Source of the DNA: Candidatus Methylomirabilota bacterium
Lineage (GTDB): Bacteria; Methylomirabilota; Methylomirabilia; Rokubacteriales; CSP1-6
Assembly (NCBI GenBank): GCA_036002485.1
Contig: DASYTI010000105.1
Location: 1 to 41,894 of the forward strand
Length of the DNA: 41,894 nt
Direction of reading: 5' to 3'
The notes beneath the pieces were generated by a model. The model had not been told where the DNA came from. It made no database searches and was given only the letters and a program-made list of their open reading frames with translations. Made by a program: the position numbers and the translations under genes. Below are positions 21,890 to 32,270 of the stretch, piece by piece (position 1 is the first letter of the stretch; every line of letters starts with the position of its first letter).

Positions 21890-22801
21890 TCAGGCGCCCC
21901 GCAGTCGTGGATCGAGCGTGTCGCGAAGGGCATCGCCGAGGAGATTCGAGCCGAAGACGGCCAGACTGATGGCGATTCCCGGGAAGAGCACGAGGTGCGG
22001 CGCCTTCTGCGCGTACTCCGCGGCCGAGACGGAGAGCATGCGACCCCACGACGGGTATGGCTCGGGAACGCCCAGCCCCAGGAAGGACAGGGTCGCCTCG
22101 ACGAGAATGGCGCTGCCGAGCTGCGCGGTGGCCAGCACGATGAAAGGGCCGACGGTGTTGGGCAGGATGTGGCGGAAAGCGATCCGGAGATGGGTAACGC
22201 CGAGGGCGCGGGCGGCTTCCACGTACTGGAACTCGCGGATGCTGAGCACGCTCGCGCGGATGACGCGCGCGGCCCGCGGCATGATGGGGATCGAGATGGC
22301 CACGATCACGTTCTGGATGGAGGGGCCGAGGGCCGCGGACATGACGAGAGCGAGCACGAGGAGGGGCAGGCCCTGCAGGATGTCCATGACGCGCTGGACG
22401 ACGAGGTCGGTCTTGCCGCCGATATATCCCGAGAGGAGCCCGATGATGCCTCCCAAGAAGGAGGCGAGAATCGTGGAACCCACCCCGACCATCAGGGACA
22501 CGCGCGCGCCGTGGATGATGCGCGAGTAGATGTCGCGGCCCAGGTGATCGGTGCCCATCCAGTGCGCCGCGCTCGGGCGGGCCAGCGTGTCGGCGGCCTC
22601 GGTGGCGATCGGATCGTGGGTCTGGATGACGTCGGCGAAGATCGCCATGAGGACGATCACCAGCATGATGGCGGCCCCCCCCGCCCCCAGGGGCTTCTTG
22701 CGGCAGAAGCGCAGGATGGTGGGAAGGACTCCCTCGCGGCTGGCCCCCTGGCGCGCGGCAGTGGAGAGTCTGACCTCGACGGTGGCGGGCTCAGCTGCCA
22801 T
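21890..22801 (-). CDS. Dipeptide/oligopeptide-type ABC transporter permease, DppC-like
   Basis: An inner-membrane permease of 303 residues with the N-terminal OppC-type helix, a periplasmic loop with HWMGTDHLGRDIYSRIIHGAR typical of DppC/OppC, and about six transmembrane segments. The EAA loop that contacts the ATPase reads EAARALGVTHLRIAFRHILPN. The start MAAEPATVE overlaps the DppB-like stop by 11 bases. Only permeases and a binding protein are encoded in this operon, so the ATPase must come from another locus. Substrate specificity cannot be read from sequence; an amide or peptide is suggested by the amidase. Confidence 0.92.
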   Translation of the reverse strand: MAAEPATVEVRLSTAARQGASREGVLPTILRFCRKKPLGAGGAAIMLVIVLMAIFADVIQTHDPIATEAADTLARPSAAHWMGTDHLGRDIYSRIIHGARVSLMVGVGSTILASFLGGIIGLLSGYIGGKTDLVVQRVMDILQGLPLLVLALVMSAALGPSIQNVIVAISIPIMPRAARVIRASVLSIREFQYVEAARALGVTHLRIAFRHILPNTVGPFIVLATAQLGSAILVEATLSFLGLGVPEPYPSWGRMLSVSAAEYAQKAPHLVLFPGIAISLAVFGSNLLGDALRDTLDPRLRGA

Positions 22802-23744
22802 AGCGAACGCGCGGATCGAGGACGCCGTACAGCATGTCCACGGTGAGGTTGGACAGGATGACCACGATGGCGATGAACATGACCAGGTTCTGCACGATCG
22901 GGTAGTCGCGCCACGAGATGGCCTGGACGAGAAAGCGCGCCACGCCGGGGAGATTGAACACGGTCTCCGTGACCACGAGCCCTCCGATGAGGAAGGCGAA
23001 CTCGATGCCGATCACCGTCACCACGGGCAGGATCGCGTTCTTGAGGGCGTGGCTCCAGATCACCGTCTTCTCCGCCTGCCCCTTGGCGCGCGCCGTCCGG
23101 ATGTAGTCCTCACGCATGACTTCGAGGAGAGCGGAGCGGGTGATGCGCATCATGAGCGCCGAGGAGCGGTAACCGACGGCGAGGGCGGGGAGCAGGAACT
23201 GGATGGCGTGGAGCGGTAAGTTCTCCCACGGGGATACGTAGGTCACGGGGGGGATCCAGCCGATCCAGGCGACGAGAACCAGGATGATGACCATGGCCAA
23301 CCAGAAGGACGGCATGGAGAGCCCGGCCAGGCTGACGACGCGGAGGACGTAGTCGAGGGCGGTGTCCTGACGGACGGCGCTGATCACGCCCGTGGGCACG
23401 CCCAGGAGCACGGCGATGATGAGCGAGAGCACCGCGAGCTCCACGGTGACCGGGATGAGCGGCCGGATGATCTCCCAGGCCGGAAGATCGTAGCGGTACG
23501 ACTTGCCCAGATCGCCCACGAGGAGGCGTCGGATCCAGTCGAGGTACTGTACCCAGAGCGGCCGGTCGAGACCGAGCTCCTTCTCGATGGCCACTCGCTC
23601 GGACGGGTTGACGTACCCGCCCGTCGAGAACAGGATGTCCACGATGTCCCCCGGGGCCAGACGCAGGAGGACGAAGATCACCAGCGACATCCCGAACAGC
23701 GTCAGCGCCGCGATGCCGAGACGCTGGGCGAGATAGGTCTTCAC
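22791..23744 (-). CDS. Dipeptide/oligopeptide-type ABC transporter permease, DppB-like
   Basis: An inner-membrane permease of 317 residues. It begins MKTYLAQRLGIAALTLFGMSLVIF, the usual DppB/OppB first helix, followed by a long periplasmic loop (GLDRPLWVQYLDWIRRLLVGDLGKSYRY). The EAA-type loop is RTARAKGQAEKTVIWSHALKNAILP. Six transmembrane helices are expected. It starts ten bases after the binding protein gene and overlaps the DppC-like gene, fixing the order of a peptide-type importer. The DPRVRYGS terminus is conserved in the family. Confidence 0.92.
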   Translation of the reverse strand: MKTYLAQRLGIAALTLFGMSLVIFVLLRLAPGDIVDILFSTGGYVNPSERVAIEKELGLDRPLWVQYLDWIRRLLVGDLGKSYRYDLPAWEIIRPLIPVTVELAVLSLIIAVLLGVPTGVISAVRQDTALDYVLRVVSLAGLSMPSFWLAMVIILVLVAWIGWIPPVTYVSPWENLPLHAIQFLLPALAVGYRSSALMMRITRSALLEVMREDYIRTARAKGQAEKTVIWSHALKNAILPVVTVIGIEFAFLIGGLVVTETVFNLPGVARFLVQAISWRDYPIVQNLVMFIAIVVILSNLTVDMLYGVLDPRVRYGS

Positions 23745-23754
23745 GTCCCCGGGG

Positions 23755-25359
23755 CTACTTGTCCCGCCACACGTCAGTCATGCGGCCGAAGTTGTAGATG
23801 TTGTTGTGGGGGATCATGTTGTGGACGTGCGGCCACACCGTGAAGTAATCGAGCTTCCAGTCGAGGATGGGCCGCGCCGCCTCCTCCTCGAGCTTCTTCT
23901 GCAGGGCCGCGAGCATCTCGAGCCGCTTCTGGGGATTGAGCTCCTGCGACTGCTGGTCGATCATCTTCATCACGGTCTCGTTGCAGTACTGGCTATAGTT
24001 GCGCGGCGAGCCGCACGCGTAGTTCTCGTAGAAGTTGGCGTCGGGATCGTCCACGCCGAGACCCGTCAGGTTGGCCCCGATCTGGTAGTCGCCGCGCGTG
24101 GCCATGGCGTGCCACTGGGCCGTCTCCACCTGCTTGAGCGTCGCCTCGATCCCGATCTGCTTCAGCTCGTTGATCACGAAGGAGGCCATGTCCACGTAGA
24201 CGGCGATGGCGCGCGTGACGATCTCGACCTTGAGGGGCTTCTCGGGCGTGTGGCCGACCTCGGCCATGAGCTTCCGGGCCTTGTCCTTCATGTCGGCGGC
24301 CTTGCCATAACCGGGGAGGGCCAGGAGCCCCTGCTCGGCGATGCCCCAGACGCCCCAGGGCTTGGGGGCCAGCGAGGCGCCGAGGACGGCCCCGCCCTGG
24401 TGCACGGCCTGGATGAGGCCGCGACGGTCGATGCCGTAGCTCACGGCCAGACGGACCTTGGGATTGTCGAAGGGCGGCTTCTTGACGTTCATGATGATGT
24501 TGTCGCTGACCGTCTGCCCGACCGGCGTGACCACGAGCTGCGGCACCGCCTTCTTGAGCTGCTCGGAGGCGGTCTTGGTCGTCTCGCCCGGGAAGGACAC
24601 GTCGAGCTTGCCCGCCTGGAGGGCGGAGACGCGGGTGCCGCGGTTCTCGATCACCACGTAACGAAGAGTGTCGAGGTAGGGGCGGCCCTTGACGAAGTAG
24701 TCGGGGTTCTTCACGTAGTCGACGTACTCGCCCTTGCGCCACTCCTTGACCTTGAAAGGTCCCGTGCCGATGCAACCCGTGCGATAGCTCGCCGGGGGCA
24801 CGTGGGCGGCGTAGATGGGGGTGTAGCCCGAGGCCAGCATCAGGAGCAGCGAGGGCTGGGGGCGCTTGAGTCGGAAGACGACCGTGTGCGAATCGGCGGC
24901 CTCCACGGCCTCGATATTGGCGTACCAGTCCTTGCGCGGATTGATGCGAAGCTTGGCTTGGGCTTCGGGCGCCTCGCGCAGCATGTCGAACGTGAACTTG
25001 ACGTCGCGCGAGGTGAACGGCTTGCCGTCGTGCCACTTGACGTCTTTCCGGAGGAAGAAGACCAGGTTCCGGTAGTTGTCCTGCCAGGACCACTTCTCGG
25101 CCAGCTCGGGAAGAAGGGTCTCGAGGCTCTCCGTACGCTTCAGCTGGTCGAAAAAGACCAGGTTGTTGAAGCACGGCAGTGACGGATAGCTCGTGGAGAT
25201 GGTCGACGTCTCGTGCACCGCGAAGCCCTGGGACAGGTCCTCGCGCAGCATGATGTTGAGGTGTCCACCGGGCTTCGGTGCCTGAGCGTGCGCGGCGGAG
25301 GTGAAGCCGGTGACCGCCAGGACCAGCCACAGGAACGCGGCGACACGGAAACGCGTCAT
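23755..25359 (-). CDS. Family 5 extracellular solute-binding protein (DppA/OppA type)
   Basis: A 534-residue periplasmic binding protein with a clear signal peptide (MTRFRVAAFLWLVLAVTGF, probable cleavage after AHA at 23-25). The family-5 pattern is visible in EKWSWQDNYRNLVFFLRKDVKWHDGKPFTSRDVKFTFD and in GTGPFKVKEWRKGEYV. Such proteins bind peptides, nickel, opines or other small compounds for DppBC-type permeases. The start follows GGGAGGG; the frame extends to 25389. It is the first gene of a five-gene operon behind a strong promoter. The ligand cannot be assigned; the amidase suggests an amide-containing molecule. Confidence 0.93.
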   Translation of the reverse strand: MTRFRVAAFLWLVLAVTGFTSAAHAQAPKPGGHLNIMLREDLSQGFAVHETSTISTSYPSLPCFNNLVFFDQLKRTESLETLLPELAEKWSWQDNYRNLVFFLRKDVKWHDGKPFTSRDVKFTFDMLREAPEAQAKLRINPRKDWYANIEAVEAADSHTVVFRLKRPQPSLLLMLASGYTPIYAAHVPPASYRTGCIGTGPFKVKEWRKGEYVDYVKNPDYFVKGRPYLDTLRYVVIENRGTRVSALQAGKLDVSFPGETTKTASEQLKKAVPQLVVTPVGQTVSDNIIMNVKKPPFDNPKVRLAVSYGIDRRGLIQAVHQGGAVLGASLAPKPWGVWGIAEQGLLALPGYGKAADMKDKARKLMAEVGHTPEKPLKVEIVTRAIAVYVDMASFVINELKQIGIEATLKQVETAQWHAMATRGDYQIGANLTGLGVDDPDANFYENYACGSPRNYSQYCNETVMKMIDQQSQELNPQKRLEMLAALQKKLEEEAARPILDWKLDYFTVWPHVHNMIPHNNIYNFGRMTDVWRDK

Positions 25360-25563: not shown

Positions 25564-25911
25564 CTACGCGGCGCTCACCCCTGGAGACGAGAGCAGCCAC
25601 TTCACGCGGATCTCCATGGTGACCAGTTCCGGCCCGCGCTTTTCCTGAATCGCCTCCACCAGGTCGCCCACGCGGATCTCGGCAAGCGAGATGGGATAGC
25701 CATCGACGCCGAAGAGCGCGGTCGTCCCTTCGTCGATCTCGATGAGACCGGTGGCGTCTTCGGCCTCGAGGACGAGGCTGCCCCTTCGACCATCATTCTC
25801 CATGACAATGCCGCTGCGGCAGGTCGCGCTTGAATCGGCATCAAGGCGCCGAGCGCTCAGGGCGAGGAGGCCGGCGAAGGGCCAGCCCGCGACCAGCACG
25901 AGCCAGTTCAT
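25564..25911 (-). CDS. Small membrane-anchored hypothetical protein
   Basis: A 115-residue protein that I do not recognise. Residues 1-19 (MNWLVLVAGWPFAGLLALS) form a single N-terminal transmembrane helix. The rest is a small beta-rich domain with two parts: GSLVLEAEDATGLIEID and SLAEIRVGDLVEAIQ, then ELVTMEIRVKWLL. The pattern could fit an OB- or PilZ-like barrel, but I cannot support a family. Its ATG overlaps the stop of the zinc-finger gene (ATGA), so the two are translationally coupled. It is the last gene of the operon behind the sigma54-type promoter at 27098-27112. Confidence 0.6.
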   Translation of the reverse strand: MNWLVLVAGWPFAGLLALSARRLDADSSATCRSGIVMENDGRRGSLVLEAEDATGLIEIDEGTTALFGVDGYPISLAEIRVGDLVEAIQEKRGPELVTMEIRVKWLLSSPGVSAA

Positions 25912-26336
25912 GGGCTGCCCCGTCTCGTAGTCCGGCGCGCATCGCGCCGAGTCAACAGTTCCTCGAGCGCGACCGGGCGCGAGCCACCCCGCCGGCGGAG
26001 CTCCGGCTCGGCCACGATGGGGCGGCGCCGGATCCGTAGCGCCAACCCGCTGCGCACGGCGCGCTCGGCGTAGAAGCGGAGGAGCCAGCGGCACATGAGG
26101 GGCCGCCGGCGGTTGTAGCCGAAGCGTCGCTTGTACTCGGCCGCGGAGGTCTCGTGCCCCAGCAGGTGGGTATTGGTCAGCTGCCGGAACGCGCGGCCAC
26201 AGATGAGGCAGATGATGCGCTCCTCCTCGATGGCCTGGCGGGGATCCAGTTTGAGCGCGGCCAGCCATTCCGTCGATCGCGGCCGCGGGGTCGATAGGAG
26301 CGAAGGCGTCGGCAGGGCGGCGGCCAGGGGGCTCAT
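25908..26336 (-). CDS. MucR/Ros-type zinc-finger transcriptional regulator
   Basis: A 142-residue protein with a Ros/MucR-like zinc finger. Cys43-x2-Cys46 is followed by GRAF and His57-x3-His61, then the family-like helix AAEYKRRFGYNRRRPLMC. Ros/MucR proteins bind AT-rich DNA and act as repressors or nucleoid organisers in alphaproteobacteria. Here the N-terminus (about 1-40) is Pro/Ser-rich and unlike classical MucR, and the C-terminus is strongly basic. SD GGAGG precedes the ATG. The ATG overlaps the stop of a 25-residue ORF and the stop overlaps the next gene's ATG. A DNA-binding role is likely, targets unknown. Confidence 0.75.
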   Translation of the reverse strand: MSPLAAALPTPSLLSTPRPRSTEWLAALKLDPRQAIEEERIICLICGRAFRQLTNTHLLGHETSAAEYKRRFGYNRRRPLMCRWLLRFYAERAVRSGLALRIRRRPIVAEPELRRRGGSRPVALEELLTRRDARRTTRRGSP

Positions 26337-26410
26337 CTCATCGCCTCCGCGGCCCGTTCGGCGCGCATGAAGCCTCCCGCCATCATCATTCGGCGTTGCG
26401 TGTTCGTCAT
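26333..26410 (-). CDS. 25-residue ORF coupled to the MucR-like gene
   Basis: ATG 26410 is preceded by GGGGAG eight bases upstream. The frame encodes 25 residues (begins MTNTQRRMMMAGGF, ends AAEAMR) and its TGA overlaps the ATG of the MucR-like gene (ATGA). The product is basic and methionine-rich with no domain. It may be a small protein or a leader that couples translation to the regulator. The evidence is the SD and overlap only. Confidence 0.4.
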   Translation of the reverse strand: MTNTQRRMMMAGGFMRAERAAEAMR

Positions 26411-26469: not shown

Positions 26470-27015
26470 CTACTGAACGGCGACGTTCGATGTCCGCTGT
26501 GCGCCCGCCCAGTGCTGAACGAACTCATCCACCCGGCCCATGGCCATCTCGTCACGCCCGGCCAGCTCGCGCGCGACGCGGACGCCCTGCTCGACCAAGT
26601 CGCGATCGCCGAGCCGCGCGAAGGCCTCGGTGACACGGAGCGTGCCCTCGAGGGAGTGGGCTTGGCGGGCCCGGACCATCGCGGAGAGATAGGCGCGGCG
26701 CGCCTCCGGCTCCATCGCGCGACGCCCCGGGCCTGCCTCGCCGAGCCGCAGCGCTCCATCACCCACGGCGAGGAACCCTTCCCAGCCCGGGCTGGCCAGC
26801 ACCGCGAGATCGGCCTTGTGGCGGGCCATCGTTGCCGCCGAGAAGTCGCCGCGCGCAAGAGCGTCGTCCATGTCGCGCAGAGGCGAGATCCACGGCGACT
26901 CCTGCTTCGCCGAGGGATCGCCCACTCGAGCGAGCGTCACCTCGAGGGCGGCGAGAACCGCTACCACCGCCATCACGAAATAGAAGACAATCCGTCGGAG
27001 CGTTTCGGCGTCCAT
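26470..27015 (-). CDS. Single-pass membrane protein of unknown function
   Basis: A protein of 181 residues that I do not recognise. MDAETLRR is followed by one transmembrane helix (about residues 9-29, IVFYFVMAVVAVLAALEVTLA). A largely alpha-helical domain then resembles a TPR-like or spectrin-like helical bundle (SPWISPLRDMDDALARGDFSAATMARHKA in part). The start chosen has GAGGGG seven bases upstream. The frame also opens at ATG 27084, only two bases from the transcription start predicted for the sigma54-type promoter, so a leaderless longer form is possible. First gene of the operon leading to the MucR-like regulator. Confidence 0.6.
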   Translation of the reverse strand: MDAETLRRIVFYFVMAVVAVLAALEVTLARVGDPSAKQESPWISPLRDMDDALARGDFSAATMARHKADLAVLASPGWEGFLAVGDGALRLGEAGPGRRAMEPEARRAYLSAMVRARQAHSLEGTLRVTEAFARLGDRDLVEQGVRVARELAGRDEMAMGRVDEFVQHWAGAQRTSNVAVQ

Positions 27016-27097
27016 GGCGTTCCCCTCGCGGGCGCTGAGCATCCCGCTCTCGACCGTTTCCGTGGGAGCCTTGCTCTGTCGCATGCCCCTACAGTTC

Positions 27098-27112
27098 GCA
27101 AGTGGGGTGCCA
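27098..27112 (-). promoter_or_regulatory. Sigma54 (RpoN)-type promoter core
   Basis: On the minus strand TGGCAC-CCCAC-TTGC matches the -24/-12 consensus exactly, with GG and GC ten bases apart. Transcription would start near 27086 and run into the membrane protein/MucR-like operon. A large protein with a sigma54-activator domain is encoded on the other side of the same intergenic region, starting at 28146. The match is seen; the functional link is inferred. Confidence 0.7.
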
Positions 27113-27142
27113 TGAAGAATCCGTTGCAGATCAATACGTTGT

Positions 27143-27203
27143 GGTGGTCAGGGTAGGTGGTCAGTGGTCAGAGTGGTAAGAAGCTGAGCAGCGATTTGAG
27201 CAG
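27143..27203. repeat. Cluster of short direct repeats upstream of the sigma54-type promoter
   Basis: GTGGTCAG occurs at 27144-27151, 27157-27164 and 27164-27171, a variant GTGGTAAG at 27173-27180, and TGAGCAG at 27185-27191 and 27197-27203. Spacings are 7-13 bases. The array lies about 55-115 bases upstream of the predicted sigma54 start, where enhancer sites of bacterial activators often sit. It may be the binding site of the adjacent regulator. Confidence 0.55.
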
Positions 27204-27303: not shown

Positions 27304-28116
27304 GTGAAAGCCCACAAGAAGGTCAAGCTCGGCAAGCACCCGCCTCGAATCGACTACCGAGCGTTCAGGCTTGCCGACTATGTCACCCGGAAGCTTCCGC
27401 CGCCGCCCCTGAAGGCAGATCTCACGGCCAAGGTAGACACCTGGCCCATGATGGGAAACGACGAGTACAACGATTGCGCGTTCGCCGCAGCCGGCCATCT
27501 CATCATGGAGTGGACGGCGAATACCGGACGTCCCGTCACTCCGGGCGAGAAATCCATTCTCGCCGCGTATTCGGCCGTGACGGGCTTCGTCAAGAAGAAG
27601 GGTGGGCACGGGCCCGGGGCGGTCGTACTCGATGTGCTCAATCACTGGAGGCAGCGCGGCATTGCCGGACATCGGATCGCCGCCTTCCTCTCCCTCACCC
27701 TCAAGGATCGCGAGGAGATCAGGGAGGCCGTAGCCCGGTTCGGAGGATGCTATCTCGGTCTGAATTTCACCAGGGAGCGCAAGGATTTTCCGCTCGTATT
27801 GTCAAAGGCGAATCTCTGGCGCGTTCGCCCCGGAAAGCGCGGAGGCCCGGGAAAGCCCAATCCGAACAAGGGGCATGTGGTCGCCGTCGTGGGCTACGAT
27901 CCGCGAGCCCTCACCTGCGTCTCCTGGGAGGACACGTACCAGATGACCTGGAAATTCTGGGAACGATATGCTGACGAAGCCTTCGCGATCATCAGTCCCG
28001 ACTGGCTCAGGGGCAAGAGGCTGCCCGTCGAATTCAATCTGCCCGCGGTGCTGGCTGACTTGAAAAAAGTGAAGAGATTGAAGAGGCAGAGAAGGGCGAT
28101 GAGCGGAACGAACTGA
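27304..28116 (+). CDS. Papain-like (C1-fold) cysteine peptidase-related protein
   Basis: A 270-residue protein without a signal peptide, with a papain-like arrangement of key residues. Cys58 lies in NDEYNDCAFAAAGHLI, with Asn52 six residues before it in the oxyanion position usually held by Gln. His191 lies in KGHVVAVVGYDP, and the following SWEDTYQMTWKFW occupies the place of papain's Asn-Ser-Trp stretch, here with Glu/Asp. There is no propeptide and the ends are basic. GTG 27304 follows AGGGAGGG. It precedes the large regulator by 29 bases on the same strand. It could be a peptidase, transglutaminase-like enzyme or pseudoenzyme. Confidence 0.65.
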   Translation: MKAHKKVKLGKHPPRIDYRAFRLADYVTRKLPPPPLKADLTAKVDTWPMMGNDEYNDCAFAAAGHLIMEWTANTGRPVTPGEKSILAAYSAVTGFVKKKGGHGPGAVVLDVLNHWRQRGIAGHRIAAFLSLTLKDREEIREAVARFGGCYLGLNFTRERKDFPLVLSKANLWRVRPGKRGGPGKPNPNKGHVVAVVGYDPRALTCVSWEDTYQMTWKFWERYADEAFAIISPDWLRGKRLPVEFNLPAVLADLKKVKRLKRQRRAMSGTN

Positions 28117-28145: not shown

Positions 28146-31100
28146 GTGGATCCCATGGACCCGCTGGCTGAGCTTCTCGGAGAGAGCGCGGCGATGGAGG
28201 CCGTCCGCGAACAGATCCGGCGGCTGCTCACCCGCCGCGAAACGGGGCGCCGGCTGCCCTCCATCCTCATCACTGGCGACACGGGCACGGGCAAGGGCCT
28301 GATTGCGCGCTCCATCCATCGGGCCGGTCCCCGGGCCGCCGGCCCGTTCGTGGACGTCAATTGTGCCGCGATCCCCGAGACGCTGATGGAGGCCGAGCTC
28401 TTCGGTTTCGAGCGCGGCGCCTTCACCGATGCGCGGCGGGCCAAGCCTGGGCTGTTCCAAGCCGCGCACCGCGGCACGATCTTTCTGGACGAAGTCGGAC
28501 TCCTGCCCGAAGCGCTCCAGGCCAAGCTGCTCAAGGCGCTCGAGGAGCGCGCGGTCCGCAGACTCGGCGCCACCACCGCCGATCCCGTGGACGTCTGGAT
28601 CGTCAGCGCGACCAACGCCGATCTTCAGGCCGCGGTCCGCCAGCGCGCCTTCCGCGAAGACCTCTATCATCGCCTCGCCGTCCTGACCCTCAGGCTTCCC
28701 CCCCTCCGCGAGCGCGGTCGCGACGTTCTCATCCTCGCCGAGCGATTCCTCGCGCGCGTCTGCGCGGACTACGCACTGCCGCCGAAGCGCTTTGCCCCCG
28801 ACGCCGAGGCAACCCTGAGCGCCTATTCCTGGCCCGGGAACGTCCGCGAGCTCGGCAACGTGATCGAGCGGGTAGCCCTCCTCGCCGACGGCGATCTCGT
28901 GACCGCCGACATGCTCGACCTCCAGACCGGCCCCGTCGAGGGGCGAGCCACGGTGCCGCCGCCTGCCCCCGTCGCCGTCTCGCTCGACCACGCCATGCGC
29001 GAGCATCTTCTTGCCGCGCTGACCCAGACTCGGTGGAACATCTCGCGCACCGCCGCCCTGCTGGGCATCTCACGCAACACCCTGCGGGGGCGAATCGAGA
29101 AATTCGGCTTGAGAGAGACGGGCAGCGCCCGCGCGGCCGCGCGGCCCGCCGCGCGGCGCAGCCCGCCCCCCGCACCATCGATCACGCCCGAGAACCGTCC
29201 CGCTCAGGTGCCCTCCACCGTCCGCTGGGAGCAGCGCCGGATCACGCTCCTCCGGGCCGCCCTCGTGGTTCCCGCGGAGACGGACGCGTTGTCGGGCACC
29301 AGCCGCGCGCTGGATGTGCTCATCGACAAGGTCAAGGTCTTCGGGGGCCGGGTCGAAGAGATCAGCCCGGCCGGACTCCTGGCCTCATTCGGCCTCGAGC
29401 CGGTCGAAGAGGCCCCCCGGAGAGCCACCCACGCGGCCCTCGCGATGCAGAAGGTGGCGGACCGAGCCCGACGGGATGACCCGCTCTCCCCGCGCCTGCG
29501 GGTGGGGATTCATGTCGCGGAGGTTCGCATTGGACAGGGCAATGACTTCGTGAAGCTGGACAGCGATGACGAGCGCGTCCATCGTGCGACGATCGCGGCA
29601 CTGCTGGAATCGGCGGGGGCCGACGACATAGTGGTCAGCGCCACCGCCCTGCCGTTTCTCGCGCGACAATTCGAACTGGCTCCCGCGCCCCGGGCGGGGC
29701 TCGAGATGCAGGCGTACCGGGTGACGGGCCATGAACGGAAAGGGTTCGAGGTCCTGGGCCGGGTGGGCGCCTTCGTCGGGCGGAGACATCAGTTGGACCT
29801 CCTCGACAGCCGCCTGGGATCCGCGGTCGGTGGACACGGGCAGGTGGTGGCTCTGGTCGGAGAGCCGGGCATGGGCAAGTCTCGTCTCGTCTGGGAGTTC
29901 ACGCGCTCCCGCGGGAGCGCCGTGGGACTCCTGCTGGAGGCATCGGGCGTGTCCCATGGGAGGTCCGCGCCGTTTCTGCCGATCACCGATCTCCTGAGAC
30001 GGTACTTCCAAATCCAGGAAATCGACAGCGTGGAGCAGATCGCGACCAAGGTCACCATGGCCGTCCGTCGCCTGGACGAGGGGCTCCTGTATTCCCTTCC
30101 CGCGATCCAGGCCCTTCTCGATGTCCCCGTGGACGATCCGCGGTGGGGCAAGCTCGACCCGCCGCAGCGGCGCCAGCAGACCCTTGACGCCCTCAAGGGT
30201 ATCCTGATGCGGGAGAGCCGGCAGCGACCGCTCCTGCTCCTCTTCGAGGATTTGCACTGGATCGATACCGAGACCGCAGCGCTGCTGGACACCCTGATCG
30301 AATCCATACCGGCGGCTCGCATGATGCTGCTCGTCACCTATCGTCCGGAATTTCGTCATGCCTGGGGAGGCAGGAGCTTCTACGCCCAGCTGAGCCTCGA
30401 GCCCCTATCCACGGAGAGCGCCGGGGACCTTCTTGACGCGCTCCTCGGTCGCGATCCCGGTCTCGGGCCGGTCAAGTCGAGCCTCATCCAGTGGGCCGAA
30501 GGCAACCCGTTCTTCCTGGAGGAAAGCGGCCGAACCCTCGTGGAGACCGGCGTATTGGTGGGCGAGCGGGGCGCTTATCGTCTCTCGAAGCCGGTCAAGC
30601 ATGTGGAGGTCCCTCCCACCGTCGAGGAGATGCTGGCCGCGAGGCTGGCGCGCCTGCCCTCGGAAGAGAGAGACCTTCTCGACTGCGCCGCCGTCATCGG
30701 GAAGGACGTCCCCCTGCCCCTCCTTCACGCGGTCACCGATCTGGCGGACCTGGACGTATTCTCGCGGATGCGACAACTGCAAGGGGCCGAGCTGCTCTAC
30801 GAGACAGGCAGCTTCCCCAAGGTCGAGTACACCTTCAAGCACGCCCTGACCCACGAGGTCACGTACCGGACGATTCCCCCGGAGCGTCGACGCGACCTCC
30901 ACGGCAGAGTAGTTGCGGCGCTCGAGCGGCTGTCGCCCGAGGCCATCCAGCAGCTCGGATACCACGCGTTCAGGGCCGAACGATGGTCACAGGCGCTCCC
31001 CTATCTCCGCCAGGCCGGGATCAAGGCGGCGGCTCAGGCCGCCAACCGGGAAGCGGTAGTCTGCTTCGAGCAGGCCTTGTTCGCCCTCGATCACGTTGCC

Positions 31101-32270
31101 GAGAGCCGCGAGCGGATCGAGCAGGCCGTCGATCTCCGATTCGACCTGCGGACCGCCCTCCTGCCCCTCGGCGAGTTCGCCGCCATGATGTCGCATCTGG
31201 GCACGGCTCAGGAGCTGGCGGAGTCTTTGGCTGACCAGGAGCGGCTGGGACGCGTCCACGCATTTCTCGCGGATTATTTCCGGCAGATCGGCCAGTACAG
31301 GGAGGCGATCGAGACGGGCCGGCGAGGCCTCGCCATTGCCCTCGCCCTCGGCGATCTCCCGCTCCAGGTGGCGACGCAGATGTACATGGGTCATGCCTTC
31401 CACGACCTCGGCGACTACCGGCGCGCGAGCGATCTGTTCAGGGAGAACGTGACGGCCATCGCGCCACCGCTCAGGGGCAAGCGGTTGGGGCTCCCCTACG
31501 TGGCATCCGTGCACTCGCGCACGTGGCTCGTCTTGTGCCTCGCCGAGCTGGGTCAGTTCGCTGAGGGCGCCGCCCTCGCGCGGGAAGCTCTGGAGATCGC
31601 CGAGTCCGCAGACGAGGTCGCGACTCTCATCTCCGCCTGCTACGGGCTGGGGCGGCTTCACCTTCGGCGGGCCGACTTTCCCCAGGCCATTCCCGTGCTC
31701 GAGCGTGGGCTCGAGCTCACCCGCGCCTGGAACATCCGCCTCTGGTCCGCCGTGCTCGCGGAGGACCTCGGCTCCGCGCACGTCCGGTCCGGGCGGATCC
31801 ACGAAGGCATTTCCCTGCTGGGGGAAGCCATCGAGCTCCACCGCGCCATGCGGGGAACAGCGGGGCAGTCACGCCGCCTGACCTCGCTCGGCGAGGCCTA
31901 CCTCGCCGCCGGTCGAGCGGAAGAGGCGGCCGCCCTCGCGGAACGTGCCCTCGAGCTCTCGCGCGCACACCAAGAGCGCGGTAACGAAGCCTGGGCGCTC
32001 CGCCTTCAAGGCGACCTTGCCGCGCGCCCGGGCTCCGCGGGGCTCGCGCGCAGCGACGCCGCCTACCGGGACGCGCTCGCCCTGTCCCGAGAACTCGGCA
32101 TGCGCCCGCTCGAAGCGCAGTGTCAGCTCGGGCTCGGCCGGCTTCAGCGGATGCTCGGGCAGCGCGACGTCGCCCTCGAGAACCTTGCCGCCGCCCTGGC
32201 GGCCTTTGGCGAGCTCGAGATGGAACTCCACCGGGGCCAGGCTCAGGCAGAGCTTGGCGCCTTAGGTTAG
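28146..32270 (+). CDS. Sigma54-activator AAA+/Fis-HTH fused to cyclase-like, P-loop ATPase and TPR-like domains
   Basis: A 1374-residue regulator. Residues about 7-260 form a bacterial enhancer-binding AAA+ domain: Walker A GDTGTGKG 44-51, L1 loop GAFTDA 91-96 (consensus GAFTGA), Walker B TIFLDEVG 111-118 and SWPGNVREL 228-236. A Fis-type HTH follows (about 284-322). Residues about 360-530 resemble a class III nucleotide cyclase (RVGIHVAEVRIG) but lack the metal-binding aspartates, so it is probably not catalytic. A second, STAND/AAA-type ATPase has Walker A GEPGMGKS 572-579 and Walker B LLLLFEDLHWID 696-707. The rest, from about 940, is helical and TPR-like. No N-terminal receiver is present, so sensing probably lies in the C-terminal half. 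GTG 28146 or ATG 28155 may start it; no clear SD. Confidence 0.88.
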   Translation: MDPMDPLAELLGESAAMEAVREQIRRLLTRRETGRRLPSILITGDTGTGKGLIARSIHRAGPRAAGPFVDVNCAAIPETLMEAELFGFERGAFTDARRAKPGLFQAAHRGTIFLDEVGLLPEALQAKLLKALEERAVRRLGATTADPVDVWIVSATNADLQAAVRQRAFREDLYHRLAVLTLRLPPLRERGRDVLILAERFLARVCADYALPPKRFAPDAEATLSAYSWPGNVRELGNVIERVALLADGDLVTADMLDLQTGPVEGRATVPPPAPVAVSLDHAMREHLLAALTQTRWNISRTAALLGISRNTLRGRIEKFGLRETGSARAAARPAARRSPPPAPSITPENRPAQVPSTVRWEQRRITLLRAALVVPAETDALSGTSRALDVLIDKVKVFGGRVEEISPAGLLASFGLEPVEEAPRRATHAALAMQKVADRARRDDPLSPRLRVGIHVAEVRIGQGNDFVKLDSDDERVHRATIAALLESAGADDIVVSATALPFLARQFELAPAPRAGLEMQAYRVTGHERKGFEVLGRVGAFVGRRHQLDLLDSRLGSAVGGHGQVVALVGEPGMGKSRLVWEFTRSRGSAVGLLLEASGVSHGRSAPFLPITDLLRRYFQIQEIDSVEQIATKVTMAVRRLDEGLLYSLPAIQALLDVPVDDPRWGKLDPPQRRQQTLDALKGILMRESRQRPLLLLFEDLHWIDTETAALLDTLIESIPAARMMLLVTYRPEFRHAWGGRSFYAQLSLEPLSTESAGDLLDALLGRDPGLGPVKSSLIQWAEGNPFFLEESGRTLVETGVLVGERGAYRLSKPVKHVEVPPTVEEMLAARLARLPSEERDLLDCAAVIGKDVPLPLLHAVTDLADLDVFSRMRQLQGAELLYETGSFPKVEYTFKHALTHEVTYRTIPPERRRDLHGRVVAALERLSPEAIQQLGYHAFRAERWSQALPYLRQAGIKAAAQAANREAVVCFEQALFALDHVAESRERIEQAVDLRFDLRTALLPLGEFAAMMSHLGTAQELAESLADQERLGRVHAFLADYFRQIGQYREAIETGRRGLAIALALGDLPLQVATQMYMGHAFHDLGDYRRASDLFRENVTAIAPPLRGKRLGLPYVASVHSRTWLVLCLAELGQFAEGAALAREALEIAESADEVATLISACYGLGRLHLRRADFPQAIPVLERGLELTRAWNIRLWSAVLAEDLGSAHVRSGRIHEGISLLGEAIELHRAMRGTAGQSRRLTSLGEAYLAAGRAEEAAALAERALELSRAHQERGNEAWALRLQGDLAARPGSAGLARSDAAYRDALALSRELGMRPLEAQCQLGLGRLQRMLGQRDVALENLAAALAAFGELEMELHRGQAQAELGALG

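Follow-up and report, generated by a model that had tools for sequence, protein, structure and literature searches.

A predicted sigma54 promoter conserved ahead of an envelope-type operon in a Methylomirabilota bacterium, and its probable divergent activator

The motif TGGCAC-N5-TTGC at positions 27098-27112 of the 41,894-nt stretch of DNA analysed here (the window) is best explained, on the sequence, as a working enhancer-dependent sigma54 promoter that would drive an operon headed by the gene TPM (26470-27015), with the product of 28146-32270 as its most likely activator. We consider this reading very probable. The locus would belong to a recurring unit in which a large and unusual activator, its likely DNA site and the promoter lie side by side before a cell-envelope operon. 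The features of the promoter region and its surroundings are as follows.

27082-27084, minus strand: near-leaderless ATG at +3, in frame with the ATG at 27015
27098-27112, minus strand: sigma54 -24/-12 core TGGCAC-N5-TTGC (TGGCACCCCACTTGC), predicted +1 at about 27086, conserved in 37 of 41 loci
27129-27141, minus strand: IHF-like box CAACGTATTGATC, one mismatch to YAAN4TTGATW, 29 bp before the TGG
27156-27170, minus strand: TGACCAC direct repeats in the sequence adjoining the dyad, additional to it
27173-27191, minus strand: presumed enhancer dyad CTGCTCAGCTTCTTACCAC, 79 bp before the TGG, 5 of 16 positions mismatched to the family dyad
27184-27203, minus strand: repeated CTGCTCA sequence element, overlapping the dyad
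27304-28116, plus strand: 270-aa ORF between promoter region and activator, an apparent insertion
28146-32270, plus strand: candidate activator with a sigma54 AAA+ domain (GAFTDA), Fis HTH, degenerate cyclase domain, AAA_16 and TPRs

The sigma54 element and its conservation

A first-pass annotation of this DNA had described TGGCAC and TTGC as exact matches with ten bases between GG and GC. Both statements are confirmed on the minus strand at 27112-27098, where GG occupies 27111-27110 and GC 27099-27098. The fuller sigma54 consensus is TGGCACG-N4-TTGCW; the window core agrees with it at 10 of the 12 specified bases, having a C at position 7 and a G at the last position. A single match in one window is not decisive because the count is close to chance (two matches with up to one mismatch in the 42 kb, versus 1.73 expected); conservation in relatives decides. 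Genome-wide (4.45 Mb) there are 19 exact matches, as compared to 4 for the reversed pattern. The window site is overlapped by a 240-aa ORF on the opposite strand; since 17 of the 19 exact sites overlap an ORF of at least 100 aa, ORF overlap has no power to single it out. The RpoN DNA-binding domain (Sigma54_DBD) scores above cut-off in the same genome, in 3' gene parts only, at or near two contig ends. These two rpoN C-terminal parts (loci L114 and L115, on contigs C106 and C19) are nearly identical and could stem from an assembly effect, from variation between strains or from a second copy of the gene.

TPM is present in three of five genomes of the genus, the window's own (G000) included; no TPM match was found in the other two genomes searched. 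Both other TPM-bearing genomes retain the sigma54 element (TGGCACCCGACTTGC in G001 and TGGCATCGCGCTTGC in G003), and in an alignment of the three genomes that runs from the upstream repeats as far as the start codon, the block TGGCA(C/T)-N5-CTTGCGAACTGTAG is nearly unchanged. With a profile built from the three same-genus proteins, TPM homologues were found in 42 of 57 genomes of the family, the window's included, with 79 places listed. Forty stretches around such places, together with the window, made up a set of 41 loci. In each, the 300 bp before the first TPM match and the first 30 bp of that match were searched for sites that depart from TGGYAY-N5-TTGC at no more than one position, GG and GC being required. 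Such a site is found in 37 loci and is exact in 26. The corresponding means in 200 dinucleotide shuffles are 0.62 (largest 3) and 0.03 (largest 1), and both the other strand and the reversed sequence yield 0. The first-pass annotation had named lack of conservation in close relatives as grounds for abandoning the promoter; retention in G001, in G003 and in most family loci speaks the other way. As for the four misses, L064 carries TGGCATCAGGGTTGCG just beyond the 300-bp limit, L068 is without upstream DNA, in L077 a profile match lies before a preceding MucR gene, and L093 is without explanation.

A profile built on 23 of the 37 promoter regions finds matches in at least 54 of the 57 genomes at E values up to 0.05; many weak ones span the promoter part only and need not belong to an activator of the 28146-32270 type. 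In the window genome, the sole strong match is the window's own site. Altogether, as far as sequence allows, 27098-27112 is almost certainly a real sigma54 promoter, and as such it is of a known and ordinary kind.

The upstream elements and the divergent activator

The usual divergent neighbour of this promoter in the family is an enhancer-binding protein of about 1,370 residues, with the same domain set as the product of 28146-32270. The window ORF is open through 1,374 codons and encodes a Sigma54_activat AAA+ domain (PF00158, 7.8e-60) and a Fis-type HTH (HTH_8, 6.4e-11). GAFTDA replaces the GAFTGA loop in all 21 aligned activators; that of L065 has a different C-terminus and that of L090 is cut short. 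The middle domain is cyclase-like, a profile of 18 members matching adenylate cyclases in the PDB (best 3.5e-05). Class III nucleotide cyclases have two metal-binding aspartates; because these were not seen, as judged by eye, at the expected places in the aligned activators, we do not class the domain as an active cyclase. A second activator of the same architecture, with an AAA+ region 74% identical, is found in the same genome on contig C35 (L113, 2918-2933 and 3081 onward), where a divergent sigma54-like site, TGGCCCGTCGCTTGCT, identified by eye, precedes the gene of a CheY-like receiver protein.

The activator is divergent from TPM in 18 loci, with 105-571 bp between the two matches. In the window it lies 1.1 kb from the promoter, behind the 270-aa ORF whose presence accounts for the distance and for which no match was found in Pfam, NCBIfam or PDB sequences. 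The bases just past the UAS still resemble the 5' start of the G001 activator gene, as if the insertion had split an activator gene near its first codons; a search for shared words of at least 7 bases across the edges of the insertion found none. An activator remnant directly adjoins the promoter in G001, where the neighbouring activator gene is broken, and at the G003 locus the promoter is kept with no activator found within the 14 kb fetched. Adjacency of the activator is therefore not needed.

The same association was surveyed from the activator side. In the family, the middle-domain profile gave 68 matches of at least 120 bits, a threshold that we set, and 58 of these were tested, leaving out nine too near contig ends and one with too little DNA. 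Allowing one mismatch, 38 of the 58 activators have a divergent sigma54 site no more than 500 bp from their estimated start, and 25 of these sites are exact; the remaining 20 activators have no divergent site within that distance. Mononucleotide shuffles for the 58 gave 1.57 (largest 5) with at most one mismatch and 0.10 exact, the same-direction control 5 and 1, and the reversed control 3 and 0. Eighteen of the 58 correspond to TPM loci already counted, 17 of them positive, and the window is the lone miss because of its insertion. The remaining 40 activators include 21 positives. Within the phylum, the middle domain occurs in 41 of the 95 genomes and 23 of the 33 genera searched (at 1e-30); four of these genomes lie outside the family, two elsewhere in the order and two elsewhere in the class.

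The family dyad is the inverted repeat GTGTTCAA-N3-TTGACCAC. It was scored in the 20 loci having both a site and an activator AAA+ match in the fetched stretch; its best match starts 77-82 bp before the TGG in these loci, being exact in eight, with one mismatch in five and with eight mismatches in L061. Several of the 17 loci without an activator match show no recognisable dyad. The degenerate window dyad, with 5 mismatches, equals the best reversed-sequence control, and so its assignment rests on position and conservation within the genus, not on score. Between dyad and promoter lies the predicted IHF-like box, YAAN4TTGATW being the complement of the IHF consensus; the window copy departs from it at one of nine specified positions. 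A box with at most two mismatches is found 29-31 bp before the TGG in 21 of 37 loci. If the best match anywhere in 160 bp is taken, in either orientation, at most two mismatches are found in 27 of the 37, versus about 12.6 in mononucleotide shuffles. The genome contains four HU/IHF-type genes, one above the IHF-beta cut-off and one just below that for IHF-alpha.

HTH type and UAS type covary in most of 26 cases, some from closely related loci and with the HTH not read in L165, L173 and L175. A TGACCA UAS goes with an RAR or KAR HTH in 14 of 16 cases, a CCACCACCACC UAS with RYR in three of four (L167 being unclear) and a TTACCA UAS with RSR or RGR in three of three. The window activator has an RGR HTH and a TTACCA-type UAS, like two RSR cases; L155 and L113 break the pairing.

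The sequences show the motif and its conservation, how the upstream elements are spaced in relatives, and which genes adjoin. For the use of sigma54, the binding of the 28146-32270 protein, the bending by IHF, the start site and the extent of the operon, we infer the following. RNA polymerase carrying RpoN would bind 27098-27112 as a closed complex. An activator bound some 80 bp upstream, at 27173-27191 and the surrounding repeats, would reach the polymerase, helped by an IHF-type bend at 27129-27141, and would spend ATP to open the complex. The transcript, from about 27086, would then carry TPM, MucR and probably a peptide-type ABC transporter. The most likely activator would be the divergent one-component enhancer-binding protein of 28146-32270; its presumed sensor, made up of a degenerate cyclase fold, an AAA_16/STAND-type ATPase and TPRs, is C-terminal to the DNA-binding domain. 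That this protein activates the promoter seems likely to us.

Competing explanations and known systems

The strongest competitor retains a real sigma54 promoter and gives it a different activator, for example the C35 paralogue or another AAA+ protein; the 28146 protein would, once the insertion had occurred, have given up its target or moved to another. Candidates exist, as the genome has 15 AAA+ domain matches, the C35 one at 74% identity among them. Furthermore, the insertion separates activator and promoter, the window dyad is degenerate, and G001 and G003 have kept their promoters with no intact neighbouring activator in the fetched stretch. However, the activator ORF has stayed open over its 1,374 codons, its RGR HTH still pairs with a UAS of the TTACCA type, which the two RSR cases share, and divergent pairing of activator and site is common in the family; we thus judge this alternative unlikely.

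A different idea is that the upstream repeats, with the sigma54 core beneath them, are sites for another regulator, for instance the operon-encoded MucR acting as a feedback repressor. In its favour, the operon of all three same-genus genomes includes a MucR homologue, MucR homologues also follow a site in both G034 and G002, and the TGACCAC direct repeats exist beyond the dyad. Yet the dyad is also found at TPM loci without a MucR match in the fetched stretch, and its type mostly tracks the activator HTH, which makes this proposal improbable. The last alternative, a functionless chance match to the sigma54 consensus, could appeal to the non-significance of one match in 42 kb and to the modest genome-wide excess (19 versus 4), but since 37 of 41 loci keep the site in the corresponding position, against 0.62 in shuffles and none on the other strand, it is extremely improbable and we reject it.

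The preferred reading, a sigma54 promoter served by the 28146-32270 protein, has a parallel in Desulfovibrio vulgaris. There, DVU2106 carries GAFTDA (PMC4641369) and the orp operons are regulated through DVU2106 palindromic sites, IHF sites and sigma54 promoters (PMC3897727). The likeness of the window extends to a predicted sigma54 promoter, presumed palindromic activator sites upstream, a predicted IHF site in between and a candidate GAFTDA activator encoded beside its targets. The comparison covers these features, and the phylum and the genes are different. A NorR variant with the same change as GAFTDA, G266D, still yields open complexes and is freed from control by its sensor domain (PMC2941729). 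The two precedents mean that GAFTDA activators can work. The outcome with VfmH, a GAFTDA protein that failed to pull down sigma54 (PMC10714721), would by analogy count against use of sigma54 by a GAFTDA activator.

Like NtrC, NorR and PspF, the window activator has a Sigma54_activat AAA+ domain followed by a Fis-type HTH. A regulatory domain at the N-terminus is the common plan of enhancer-binding proteins, as described in PMC7175178; unlike that plan, the window protein has no domain before the AAA+ domain, and its HTH is followed by about 1,000 residues of cyclase-like/AAA_16/TPR sequence. Its residues 378-1328 match positions 310-1262 of TIGR03903 (TOMM system kinase/cyclase fusion protein), although at 300.8 bits against a cut-off of 705.75, and AAA+ and HTH domains stand where TIGR03903, by its name, has a kinase. 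Its second-best NCBIfam match, TIGR02915 (PEP-CTERM-box response regulator), covers the AAA+-HTH part at 294.7 bits, below the cut-off of 502.6, and the window protein is without a receiver domain.

In the open-licence PMC literature we found no paper that brings together sigma-54 with Rokubacteria or Methylomirabilota, or enhancer-binding with Rokubacteria, and the domain order of the activator was not found there by title or abstract start. As far as these searches reach, the cassette of activator and promoter appears to be a variant not yet described. We give even weight to the broader proposal that Rokubacteria and their relatives possess an undescribed class of one-component sigma54 activators, with a C-terminal pseudo-cyclase/STAND-type ATPase/TPR sensor and a natural GAFTDA loop. 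Their genes would tend to lie next to, and point away from, a UAS-IHF-sigma54 promoter of their own, and their targets would be operons for the envelope, lipids and peptide transport, in many of which the first start codon is no more than a few bases from the transcript start. For a group that has been little studied, the cassette provides a regulatory unit ready for testing; it offers a natural test of the role of the GAFTDA loop and a first handle on a sigma54 regulon in that group. A STAND/TPR-type sensor behind a sigma54 activator, if true, would widen the known modes of activator control.

The transcript start and the downstream genes

The geometry of the core bears out the start predicted by the first-pass annotation: taking the C of TTGC as -12 places +1 at 27086. 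Also as claimed there, the ATG at 27084 is then at +3 and the ATG at 27015 at +72, with an SD-like GAGGGG before it. Across the 23 codons from 27084 to 27015, differences between the window genome and G001 number 3, 2 and 1 at the three codon positions, versus 19, 17 and 64 in the TPM gene. This stretch shows no sign of coding constraint within the genus and was rejected as a conserved protein, so that the ATG at 27015 is favoured as the main start in the genus. Of 36 related loci from nine genera (the 37 with a site, L089 being skipped), 18 have an in-frame ATG or GTG at +2 to +7 and 4 have one that is out of frame or blocked. This count points the other way, and both findings hold. We read the near-leaderless start as a probable family tendency, with the ATG at 27015 as the likely main start here. 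The G001 TPM leader (L026/L057) contains an 81-base tandem repeat after the first ATG.

The genes downstream of the promoter are the following.

26470-27015, minus strand: TPM, 181 aa, an N-terminal membrane-length helix and seven helices, weakly TPR-like
26333-26410, minus strand: putative small ORF of 25 codons, its stop overlapping the MucR start
25908-26336, minus strand: ROS/MucR-type regulator (PF05443, 1.8e-12)
25564-25911, minus strand: small conserved protein, no family assigned
23755-25359, minus strand: ABC transporter solute-binding protein SBP_bac_5, start codon chosen by eye
22791-23744, minus strand: OppB-type permease (BPD_transp_1)
21890-22801, minus strand: OppC-type permease (BPD_transp_1, OppC_N)

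The earlier description of a membrane-protein/MucR-like operon holds, given the membrane-length helix, the MucR match and the co-oriented ABC transporter genes. The order TPM, MucR, small protein, SBP_bac_5, OppB and OppC, all co-oriented, is common to the three same-genus genomes. The gap of about 200 bp before SBP_bac_5 (25564-25359) leaves room for another promoter.

TPM was rejected as a member of a known family. It has no NCBIfam match; a Pfam scan of 40 of the 60 listed members gave one weak TPR_16 and one weak FCD match; its profile matches mostly designed helical proteins in the PDB; and in Foldseek the best E value is 0.016, with none at or below 0.001. The structural model (pLDDT 76.5) has one predicted membrane-length helix, at the N-terminus, and the designation TPR-like is weak. 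TPM genes are often in tandem, with up to three in a row in L074 (4961-6509).

The ORFs downstream of 31 further promoter-profile sites were read by eye, without family searches. They include CDP-alcohol phosphatidyltransferase-, acyltransferase- and fatty-acid-hydroxylase-like genes, and MucR with the same ABC transporter follows a site in G034 and G002; other ORFs look unrelated to the envelope. Envelope- and lipid-type genes would fit, by analogy, the published view that sigma54 serves the cell exterior (PMC3162934). In four genomes (L150, L153, L154 and L166) the same promoter type lies ahead of a conserved lipoprotein (TYDGQLAMETFGRG or close to it), and in three of these four phospholipid-type genes follow.
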